The position numbers were made by a program, and so were the translations under genes. Shown in pieces: positions 6,029 to 30,559 of a DNA stretch of 33,900 bases (position 1 is its first letter; every line of letters begins with the position of its first letter). The notes beneath the pieces are model-generated. The model worked only from the letters and a program-made list of their open reading frames with translations. It ran no database searches and had not been told where the DNA came from. This DNA is from Methanobacteriota archaeon (GTDB lineage Archaea > Thermoplasmatota > Poseidoniia > Poseidoniales > Poseidoniaceae), in contig PAOW01000004.1 in the NCBI GenBank assembly GCA_002710015.1, forward strand, positions 1-33,900. The letters run 5' to 3'.

Positions 6029-6442
6029 ATGACATATACACCACATTTAGCGAGAAAGTTGTACAAAACGACTTTATCTATGGATGATATTAAACATCCT
6101 AACGAATTGCCCTCACCAGAGGGTGCTGGCAAAGACCAAGACTGGTGCAAACCAGTTGTATGGCACATGGTTGATGGCAGTGTTTATGTTACTTTTTGGG
6201 ATGATTACCTTACTGCTTATAACAAAGATAATGGTGACAAATTTACTATTGCAAGTAGTTCTGATGCTACCAAGGTAAGAGCATTGTATGACGAAACTAT
6301 AAGGACAGAATACAATCATATGGTAACAGCAAAATATACAACTGCTGAATTAGCTGTTCCTACTGATGACATGAAAACAGACATGACTGCAATGTTGAAA
6401 GACATAACTGACATATATGATGCAATGGTTATTATTAAATAA
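6029..6442 (+). CDS. Hypothetical protein (possible partner of the upstream propeller protein)
   Basis: ORF overlapping or adjacent to RCC1 gene end; start at MTYTPHL behind aggagtaag RBS. Confidence 0.6.
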   Translation: MTYTPHLARKLYKTTLSMDDIKHPNELPSPEGAGKDQDWCKPVVWHMVDGSVYVTFWDDYLTAYNKDNGDKFTIASSSDATKVRALYDETIRTEYNHMVTAKYTTAELAVPTDDMKTDMTAMLKDITDIYDAMVIIK

Positions 6443-22881: not shown

Positions 22882-22910
22882 AATATAATGCTATTGTCTT
22901 AATAAGTCAA
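22882..22910 (-). promoter_or_regulatory. Early promoter P1 (leftward)
   Basis: Reverse strand TTGACT-17 nt-TATATT; GAC repeat in spacer. Confidence 0.85.
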
Positions 22911-22989: not shown

Positions 22990-23018
22990 TTGACATATAT
23001 GGACACACATGCTATATT
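22990..23018 (+). promoter_or_regulatory. Early promoter P2 (rightward)
   Basis: TTGACA-17 nt-TATATT; GGACA in spacer; GTGGAAAGAGAGGT leader follows. Confidence 0.9.
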
Positions 23019-24282: not shown

Positions 24283-24328
24283 TTGATAAAAGCAAAAGAC
24301 TATAATGACAGGTACGTTTGGTTATGGT

Positions 24329-24373
24329 GTCAGCCTTAACCTCACTTTCCACAAATTTGAAATTAAGGCTGAC
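24329..24373 (+). ncRNA. Long intergenic hairpin (terminator or regulatory RNA)
   Basis: Perfect 11-bp inverted repeat GTCAGCCTTAA ... TTAAGGCTGAC with 23-nt loop, followed by a T-rich stretch. Confidence 0.7.
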
Positions 24374-24408
24374 TTTGTTTTTTCTCCTTACGTAGATTAA
24401 CATTGTTG

Positions 24409-24466: not shown

Positions 24467-24495
24467 TTGACTTAAAGCGACACATGTATTATATT
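24467..24495 (+). promoter_or_regulatory. Early promoter P3
   Basis: TTGACT-17-TATATT; spacer contains CGACAC; GTGGAAAGAGAGGT leader. Confidence 0.88.
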
Positions 24496-25711: not shown

Positions 25712-26371
25712 ATGGAAATATTACAAATACAAAAAGACGAAACTACTGAGTGGTTAAAAAATTTACATTACGCAAAAAGATTACCTGCCTCTATAAGTTA
25801 TGCTTTTGGCATATACGAAAACAAAATTTTAAAAGGCATTATTACGTATGGGTCACCTAGTGGTAGAGAGTTAGCACAAATGATTTGTGGTGACGATTTT
25901 ATGCACGAGGTTTTAGAATTAAATAGGCTTGTGTTGTTAGACAATAAAAAAAACCAAGCTAGTTTTTTAATAGCAAATAGCATGAAATTATTACCCAAGC
26001 CAAAGATAGTTGTGACATACGCTGACACAAACATGAATCATCATGGGTTTGTTTATCAAGCATGTAACTTTATTTATACGGGTCTAAGTAAGCCAAGGGC
26101 AAAGTTTTTTGCACCTAATGGTACTGAGATAGCTGAACGCACTTTAAGTGAGTGGCAAGGCTTTAATACACGACAAGAGACATTAAAAAAGTATAATATA
26201 CGTGTAGAGAGACAAGAGGGTAAACATAGGTATGTTTATTTTGTTACGACAAAGACAATGAAAAAAGAAAGAATGAAACATTTTAAGTTAGACAATTTGC
26301 CTTACCCAAAAGGTGACAACCAAGTATATGACGTAGATTACAAACCAAATGTACAAGGGTTGTTATTTTGA
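25712..26371 (+). CDS. Mom-like DNA (adenine) modification protein
   Basis: NLHYAKRLPASISYAFGIYENKILKGIITYGSPSGRELA...VLELNRLVLLDNKKNQASFLIANSMKLL...VVTYADTNMNHHGFVYQACNFIYTG: GNAT-type Mom family pattern. Confidence 0.75.
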   Translation: MEILQIQKDETTEWLKNLHYAKRLPASISYAFGIYENKILKGIITYGSPSGRELAQMICGDDFMHEVLELNRLVLLDNKKNQASFLIANSMKLLPKPKIVVTYADTNMNHHGFVYQACNFIYTGLSKPRAKFFAPNGTEIAERTLSEWQGFNTRQETLKKYNIRVERQEGKHRYVYFVTTKTMKKERMKHFKLDNLPYPKGDNQVYDVDYKPNVQGLLF

Positions 26372-27015: not shown

Positions 27016-27044
27016 TTGACGTTTTACGACACATACCCTATATT
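27016..27044 (+). promoter_or_regulatory. Early promoter P5
   Basis: TTGACG-17-TATATT; CGACAC in spacer; GTAAGGAGAAAAAAAG follows. Confidence 0.87.
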
Positions 27045-27099
27045 AATAATGTAAGGAGAAAAAAAGATGGCAAAAAAAGTTGAGTATGGTTGACGAAGA

Positions 27100-27220
27100 A
27101 TTGGGAACTGCCCCCCAGCCTTGGTCTTTGGCAAGGGTAACGAAATAGGGCAATAGTTCTAGTGTAATTGACTGCTCTTGTGGGAGTGTTGCTACAATGG
27201 TCGCCACTCCCCAAGAGACG
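27100..27220 (+). ncRNA. Candidate structured RNA / 5' leader of DUF2958 gene
   Basis: Two hairpin domains: GAACTGCCC(27105-27113)/GGGC-aat-AGTTC(27148-27159) enclosing CCTTG/CAAGG; and CTCTTG-t-GGGAGTG(27175-27188)/CACTCCCCAAGAG(27205-27217). GC-rich, lies between a promoter and the next start codon. Confidence 0.65.
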
Positions 27221-27242
27221 GATTTTCAAAGAAAGGGAAAAA

Positions 27243-27530
27243 ATGAAATTATTAACCAAAGCATTAGAAAAAAAGTTGTTAGACAATGCCACTAAAAAAG
27301 ATGGTGTTGCCTACGTTAAATGGTTTAACCCTACTGGCATTGGCACTTGGTACGTAAGTGAGATGGATAAGAATGGGGTTTGTTATGGCTTGGCATGTAT
27401 GCACGAGAAAGAGTTTGGATACTTTGCCAAAGGCGAATTAGAGGCATTAAAATTGCCTTTTGGGTTAGGAATCGAGAGAGATACTTGGTTTGACCCAACA
27501 CCATTAGAAAAATGTAAGGAGTTAGCATGA
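27243..27530 (+). CDS. DUF2958-like protein
   Basis: MKLLTKALEKKLLDN...VKWFNPTGIGTWYVSEMDKNGVCYGLACMHEKEFGYFAKGELEALKLPFGLGIERDTWFDPTPL. Confidence 0.8.
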   Translation: MKLLTKALEKKLLDNATKKDGVAYVKWFNPTGIGTWYVSEMDKNGVCYGLACMHEKEFGYFAKGELEALKLPFGLGIERDTWFDPTPLEKCKELA

Positions 27531-27709: not shown

Positions 27710-28150
27710 TTACAAATCATCCCAATTGACCCCATCTTTGGATGGGGTTTTTTCTATGGGGTCAGGAACATCCATTGGTGGCTCATTATACTCCATAGGC
27801 TCTTCACCCATTGGTGGTGGCTCATTGCTCACTTGACTAGGCTTATTACAAAACAATCTCCACCTAGCAACCAAGGGATAATCTTTAATATCTGCACCTT
27901 GTCTTTCTTGTACTTGTAAACTTATCTCCACCTTATTGTTTTCTATTAACGTGGTTATTTCGTCTATCACCGCTTGTTGGTCACGATTCATTGGCATAGG
28001 TCTATTGGTTGAGTTATCCCAACCATTGTCAATTTGCATCCATGCACTAAGACGATATTCAGTTTCCATCTCTTCACCATACTCTTTTGGCATGGCTTTT
28101 AATATTTTTTGTTTGGCATTACCAAACGTAGGTTTATTACCTTGAGGCAT
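27710..28150 (-). CDS. Putative single-stranded DNA-binding protein
   Basis: Pro-rich acidic C-terminal tail ending DGVNWDDL (SSB-like tail), operon with annealing protein-like and nuclease genes. Confidence 0.5.
   Translation of the reverse strand: MPQGNKPTFGNAKQKILKAMPKEYGEEMETEYRLSAWMQIDNGWDNSTNRPMPMNRDQQAVIDEITTLIENNKVEISLQVQERQGADIKDYPLVARWRLFCNKPSQVSNEPPPMGEEPMEYNEPPMDVPDPIEKTPSKDGVNWDDL
27729..27753 (+). terminator. Rho-independent terminator, inside 3' end of the convergent CDS
   Basis: ACCCCATC-TTTG-GATGGGGT followed by TTTTT. Confidence 0.88.
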
Positions 28151-29927: not shown

Positions 29928-30045
29928 TTAATTCCTCATTCCTTATCTTAAAACATTGCTTACACATAAGTTGTTGGCGACTTGCTAACTCACCAACATT
30001 ACAAAACCTACAAATTAGCTTGGTCGAGTTCACCCTTGTATTCAT
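29857..30045 (-). CDS. Small zinc-ribbon protein
   Basis: LICRFCNVGELASRQQLMCKQCFKIRN: two CxxC pairs. Confidence 0.6.
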   Translation of the reverse strand: MNTRVNSTKLICRFCNVGELASRQQLMCKQCFKIRNEELNGRHDIRRVGNTARLRASLQSKE

Positions 30046-30244
30046 AGTTTGCGTACCTTACTTTGTTTCCAAACCTGTCTTTTGATGTTTCCATATGCGT
30101 AACAATGTCATATTTTTCACGTAATACTAATATGATTGCACTTAGTCTCATGCTACCATATTGCTTGTAAGCATCAACTGGTGTTATAAATTTATGTTTC
30201 TTTAAGTGGCTCAAAACCTTGAATGTTTTTGTATCGAGTTTCAT
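30008..30244 (-). CDS. Winged-helix/HTH regulator (HTH_39-like)
   Basis: FKVLSHLKKHKFITPVDAYKQYGSMRLSAIILVLREKYDIVTHM. Confidence 0.7.
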   Translation of the reverse strand: MKLDTKTFKVLSHLKKHKFITPVDAYKQYGSMRLSAIILVLREKYDIVTHMETSKDRFGNKVRYANYEYKGELDQANL

Positions 30245-30349: not shown

Positions 30350-30559
30350 ATGACGTTAAATGAATGGCGATTAAAAAGGTCTTATTCATATCGCAAGTTA
30401 GCCAAGATTCTAGGGGCTGGTGGTGCTACTACAATACGTAGATGGTGCTTACCCAAGGAACACCCACAAAGTCTTGTGCCTAGTCAAAAATACATGACCA
30501 TGATTGTTGATATTAGTAATGGCGAGGTCATGCCAAACGACTTTTACATAACAAGATGA
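30350..30559 (+). CDS. HTH transcriptional regulator (Cro/XRE-like)
   Basis: MTLNEWRLKRSYSYRKLAKILGAGGATTIRRWC...VMPNDFY. Confidence 0.75.
   Translation: MTLNEWRLKRSYSYRKLAKILGAGGATTIRRWCLPKEHPQSLVPSQKYMTMIVDISNGEVMPNDFYITR

Follow-up and report, generated by a model that had tools for sequence, protein, structure and literature searches.

Few phage tools that consist of RNA only are known, namely put, Racr and packaging RNA. The put elements of phage HK022 (putL and putR) lie behind early promoters, where tandem stem-loops with bulges and non-canonical pairs form a two-hairpin RNA that binds RNA polymerase directly and acts as an antiterminator needing no dedicated phage protein (PMC9378689). 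Each is ~70 nt long and binds the beta' zinc-binding domain of the polymerase. The nut sites of phage lambda, consisting of a single-stranded boxA and a boxB hairpin behind it and paired with an N-type protein encoded by the phage, likewise place a hairpin in an early leader. Racr anti-CRISPR RNAs are phage-encoded small RNAs. GOLLD and other orphan RNAs from phages and marine metagenomes are structured and non-coding, were found by sequence comparison, and long went without an assigned function.

Here, we describe a leader RNA from a 33.9-kb contig (the whole stretch of DNA that was analysed, referred to as the window), which belongs to a tailed phage: Pfam identifies head-tail connector and capsid genes, and the terminase shares 56% identity with that of the Pelagibacter phages HTVC024P and Skadi. 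The contig was binned into a bacterial assembly, presumably from a marine alphaproteobacterium. The leader occupies ~190 nt between an early promoter (27016-27044) and the start of a DUF2958 gene at 27243. It is an exception, since the other early promoters of this phage reach their genes after short untranslated leaders. We judge the chances slightly better than even that this region encodes a new two-domain phage RNA, that is, an early-transcribed and transferable module that is not specific to DUF2958 and whose tip docks a shared partner. Its features are given below, together with their occurrence in a sister phage (L033), a further relative of similar synteny (L003) and three contigs of a more distant marine phage (L036, L037 and L038).

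27016-27044, plus strand: early sigma-70-type promoter, TTGACG-17-TATATT, of a type repeated in the window, L003 and L033
27067-27093, plus strand: 8-codon mini-ORF M(A/G)KKVEYG* (in the window MAKKVEYG*) with an AAGGAG Shine-Dalgarno sequence; putative coding role
27079-27083 with 27090-27094, plus strand: small hairpin overlapping the mini-ORF
27086-27148, plus strand: second short ORF, overlapping the first
27100-27163, plus strand: stem 1 domain, with an identical fold predicted from each sequence alone
27100-27106 with 27157-27163, 27109-27113 with 27148-27152, 27114-27116 with 27135-27137, and 27118-27120 with 27130-27132, plus strand: helices of stem 1
27172-27221, plus strand: hairpin 2, whose long stem has a single bulged T in the window; AUUUU comes next
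27188-27206, plus strand: conserved tip of hairpin 2, GUUGCUACAAUGGUCGCCA (19 nt), exact in L033, L036, L037 and L038
27243-27530, plus strand: DUF2958 gene (PF11171, E 9.8e-15), downstream of the leader and outside the RNA, given for context

The -35 box of the promoter at 27016-27044 overlaps a near-palindrome, TTGACGTnnnACGACA. Early promoters with this overlap, extended to TTGACGTnnnACGACA(A), form a family with members at 22910 (minus strand) and at 22990, 24467, 25187 and 27016 (plus strand) of the window, with further members at 34, 1257, 4090 and 4917 of L003. The near-palindrome looks like a shared operator of the early promoters, for which a winged-helix gene (30008-30244, minus strand) and a small gene (30350-30559, plus strand) are candidate regulators. 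A long imperfect hairpin (GTCAGCCTTAA...TTAAGGCTGAC, 24325-24375) separates the end of a gene from the promoter at 24467; it has no T run and is among the most stable stretches of the window. A Mom-family DNA-modification gene (PF25680) is located at 25712-26371; the matching place in L033 (2851-4020) holds a 389-residue ORF that, by eye, looks like a fusion of an ATPase with an acetyltransferase-like domain. The early operon behind the leader is short, with two genes before an intrinsic terminator called by the terminator scan (27728-27749), which lies between convergent operons.

Three-frame translation, codon scores and comparison with L033 revealed no clear protein frame in the leader. The best frame scores -0.04, whereas no stretch of known genes falls below 0.01; it is interrupted in both phages (a stop codon in the window, an indel frameshift in L033), and gave chance matches only when searched by tblastn against phages. 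This bears out the original prediction of a ~190-nt leader without a convincing frame. Two mini-ORFs had also been proposed: MAKKVEYG lies exactly where it was placed (27067-27093), and the second starts at 27086, not at 27085. It is possible that a short peptide is made from either. A 31-nt block overlapping the first (27072-27102) is identical between the window and L033. For the DUF2958 gene, tblastn found only distant genes; its closest DNA match, in Marine virus AG-345-A17 (L024), starts at the gene itself, without the leader.

Relative to shuffled sequences, the full 192 nt are not unusually stable (z -0.5). Hairpin 2 reaches z -3.9 to -5.6 (at z -3.9, 0 of 200 shuffles were as stable) and ranks second among the 6769 60-nt windows on the plus strand, the sole more stable one looking like an intrinsic terminator. 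Its stem (27175-27188 with 27205-27217), with a bulge at T27181 and a 16-nt loop, agrees with the 13-bp hairpin that had been proposed, and is longer by C-U-G/C-G-G (27172-27174 with 27219-27221). The tip folds as GU-U-GC-U-AC-[AAUG]-GU-C-GC-C-A and is likely to be a recognition element. Local GC content peaks at 0.46, compared with mostly 0.25-0.40 nearby, as had been claimed, save for a few nearby stretches at 0.43-0.44. Stem 1 has its core at 27110-27113 with 27148-27151, and its outer helix has two possible registers, GAACU/AGUUC or AUUGGGA/UUCUAGU. Both are intact; the first of these belonged to the bulged stem as originally drawn.

The fragment L033 (4.3 kb) was found by scanning viral contigs for the early promoter and has the same gene neighbourhood as the window. 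Its leader is 88% identical to that of the window, including promoter, mini-ORF, stem 1 and hairpin 2, and the similarity runs from the promoter to GATTTT just past hairpin 2, where it stops, so that the Shine-Dalgarno sequence of the next gene falls outside the conserved block. That gene, visible in its first codons only, starts with MTKEVKTLKELGMS and is not DUF2958. Folding the window alone, L033 alone or both together predicts the same structure. The stem 1 domain differs by 12 substitutions that break no pairs and compensate three: 27111-27150 (C-G to A-U), 27118-27132 (G-C to C-G) and 27120-27130 (C-G to U-A). With 12 substitutions placed at random on the structure predicted from the window alone, both results were obtained in 4 of 100,000 trials (P ~4e-5); in a weaker control, where the 3' letters were dealt out between both sequences, 53 of 500 shuffles reached the observed covariation, the limit of what a pair of sequences can show. 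The consensus energy of stem 1 in the two sequences has a z of -5.3 against column shuffles; because stem 1 alone is no more stable than shuffles (z -0.17 to -0.07), it becomes significant only by the comparison with L033. We regard its covariation, as read from this alignment, as real but thin. The helix that covaries is GCC/GGC (27118-27120 with 27130-27132; CCU/AGG in L033), and the inner CCTTG/CAAGG helix of the original prediction is not kept, losing one pair in L033. In hairpin 2, an extension pair changes from U-G in the window to U-A in L033, the stem survives the indels (the window has its extra T on the 5' arm, L033 on the 3' arm), and the loop is invariant.

Certainty is limited by the number of sequences, as the leader is available at full length from the window and L033 only, plus one further phage group with the tip. 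The relative L003 has no leader, and a real gene (MTKKETINVF...) stands right behind its corresponding promoter. The leader is also absent from the known pelagiphage relatives HTVC024P and Skadi-4. Model searches of the order, class and phylum genomes returned the window and no further copies, and scanning for parts of the stems as exact patterns yielded either no match or GC-rich ones attributable to chance.

The further phage group came from a scan for 17 nt of the hairpin 2 tip itself, which besides L033 matched three contigs of another, more distant marine phage (L036, L037 and L038). All three contain GUUGCUACAAUGGUCGCCA exactly, folded as in the window but within a different, complementary lower stem, in which CUCAGG/CCUGAG replaces CUCUUG/CAAGAG. 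Bacterial contigs holding the same 17-mer numbered 17, as expected by chance, and none of them has the tip fold; when flanks were shuffled, 2% formed a closing stem as long as that of L038, as did 2 of these 17 contigs. The tip belongs to an intergenic block of ~265 nt, found on the minus strand of L036 (about 6030-6310) and in L038 (about 525-795). Between these contigs the block differs by one substitution and one 25-nt hairpin-forming indel, and the genes next to it differ at roughly 10-30% of positions. The block, for which Rfam gave no match, probably encodes a larger non-coding RNA with the tip motif inside it. A covariance model built from the window and L033 only finds L038 over its full length, upstream stem included (E 4e-4), and L038, which shows the two-hairpin arrangement, is its best non-member in 230 kb. 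A match of model R1 to another contig, L011 (E 0.04), was set aside as chance, since the second half of this match departs from the tip. In G318, a homologue of L038, the RNA shares its strand with a long series of leftward genes. Several genes, one of them 73% identical in DNA, are common to the second phage and the window phage, so overlapping hosts are plausible. From the 19-nt identity, the stem, the position and the conservation of the block, taken together, we consider the link between the two phages very probably real.

Comparison with 4227 Rfam models (gathering threshold and E-value mode) gave chance-level matches only, no tRNA or tmRNA was detected in the region, and no published sequence strings matching the element were found. 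The structured RNA of the original prediction is thus supported by covariation, by the orthologous leader of L033 and by absence from Rfam; the findings that had been named as speaking against it (absent covariation, a protein frame in relatives, an Rfam match) were looked for, and none refuted it. Of the classes that had been suggested, an independent phage ncRNA fits better than a riboswitch, as does, beyond them, a generic early-leader element. A metabolite riboswitch or gene-specific cis-regulator was rejected, with no conserved gene association, no called terminator and the Shine-Dalgarno sequence outside the block. With a different gene behind the leader in L033 and no conserved expression platform detected, a gene-specific riboswitch is unlikely. 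Nor is a DUF2958-specific regulator supported: the next gene differs in L033, conservation ends before its ribosome-binding site, and no strong terminator comes after hairpin 2, which the scan that called 27728-27749 did not call. Mimicry of 16S rRNA was considered for the tip, because 16S presumably holds GUGCUACAAUGG. The tip fold does not fit what we take to be the corresponding 16S helix, and, with up to 2 mismatches allowed, no 16S match recurs in the host family; the source assembly holds no 16S. We retain this idea as a lead only.

How such an RNA might work can be read in several ways. Were we to pick a single mode, it would be a leader that, like HK022 put or lambda nut, acts on the polymerase transcribing it or on the early message; a trans-acting RNA, released from the transcript, comes close behind in likelihood, and an ordinary attenuator follows. 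A trans-acting small RNA, cut off or partly terminated after hairpin 2 and 125-175 nt long, may titrate a host protein or pair with host RNA. This possibility, somewhat doubtful by itself, is consistent with the gene behind the leader not being kept in L033, with conservation that stops just past hairpin 2, where AUUUU follows the extended stem, and with the L036/L038 block, which lies between small genes and is better conserved than they are. However, a four-U tail after an A is weak and was not called by the terminator scan, and L036 and L038 have no U tract there. A little less probable still is an ordinary cis leader of the next gene, in which the mini-ORF would work together with stem 1 as a translation-coupled attenuator, or hairpin 2 would stabilise or gate the message. 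The mini-ORF is well placed, with its Shine-Dalgarno sequence, in both the window and L033; a ribosome halted at 27093 would sit over the outer strand of stem 1 (27100-27106), and hairpin 2 lies 25 nt upstream of the next start codon. Against this reading, L033 has a different next gene whose Shine-Dalgarno sequence is outside the conserved block, inspection by eye shows no conserved alternative pairing (that of CAAGGG with CUCUUG weakens in L033), and the phage's other early promoters have short untranslated leaders.

The remaining explanations are considerably weaker. A DNA-level element, with the hairpin formed in single-stranded DNA (e.g. as a site for primase or replication initiation, or as a packaging signal), is improbable: its location in the early region would suit, and the other strand also folds into a hairpin, albeit less well (-22.4 versus -26.1), but the element is directly behind a promoter, on the transcribed strand, and several of its pairs, which vary from G-U to A-U or from U-G to U-A, are G-U on that strand and would be A-C mismatches on the other. 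That the leader is what remains of a decayed gene, or intergenic filler in which a hairpin arose by chance, could be imagined from the real gene that L003 has in this place; 88% identity to L033, compensated substitutions, structure-preserving indels and an invariant tip largely refute it, leaving it very improbable. The tip and a type II-C tracrRNA anti-repeat, as we take it to read, have GUUGCUACAAU in common. An RNA anti-CRISPR or tracrRNA mimic would, like the Racrs, be a phage-encoded RNA (PMC10651486). We nevertheless consider it the least probable explanation of all, as Cas1 was found in 0 of 167 host-family genomes (controls were positive in 9 of 14) and the tip motif, at up to 2 mismatches, is not above the reversed control in the host family; the rest of the assembly does not contain it, even with 3 mismatches allowed. 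Since the host family lacks both motif and Cas1, a CRISPR-repeat mimic is unlikely, and a Racr or solitary CRISPR repeat was rejected, no host CRISPR repeat or Cas1 having been found in that family. In a search for Cas9 domains, the controls gave no signal.

The two-domain RNA that we favour stands closest to put. In the window and in L033, two tandem stem-loops lie near an early promoter, in sense to early transcription. The likeness concerns the described architecture, and the leader RNA is longer (~125 nt) and comes with a mini-ORF. Because the operon behind the leader has only two genes, an antiterminator would be little needed in the window, while it would be sensible in the second phage, where the RNA is on the strand of a long leftward gene run. 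As to nut, UGCUCUU at 27173-27179 resembles boxA, but this string is inside a hairpin stem, whereas the boxA of lambda nut is single-stranded, and L036 and L038 do not have it. Compared with GOLLD, the leader RNA is much smaller, and it has no Rfam match.

In our preferred reading, a structured RNA of about 125-175 nt, comprising the stem 1 domain and hairpin 2, would form at the 5' end of an early transcript started at the promoter seen in the sequence, and would function as RNA. It probably docks a partner, because its shape is kept by matched mutations in L033 and its tip recurs letter for letter elsewhere. The invariant tip may be the docking site for a protein or RNA that is common to the hosts or carried by the phage, and via this tip the leader would act on host machinery early in infection. 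More tentatively, these may be members of a new class of early-leader RNAs, common to different marine phages, that capture a host factor via GUUGCUACAAUGGUCGCCA without a dedicated phage protein, as put does. Kept across different marine phages, the tip provides a short, defined bait for the partner, and covariance models R1 and R2, derived from the module, allow larger marine collections to be searched. If true, the finding would show ocean phages acting on their hosts at the RNA level.
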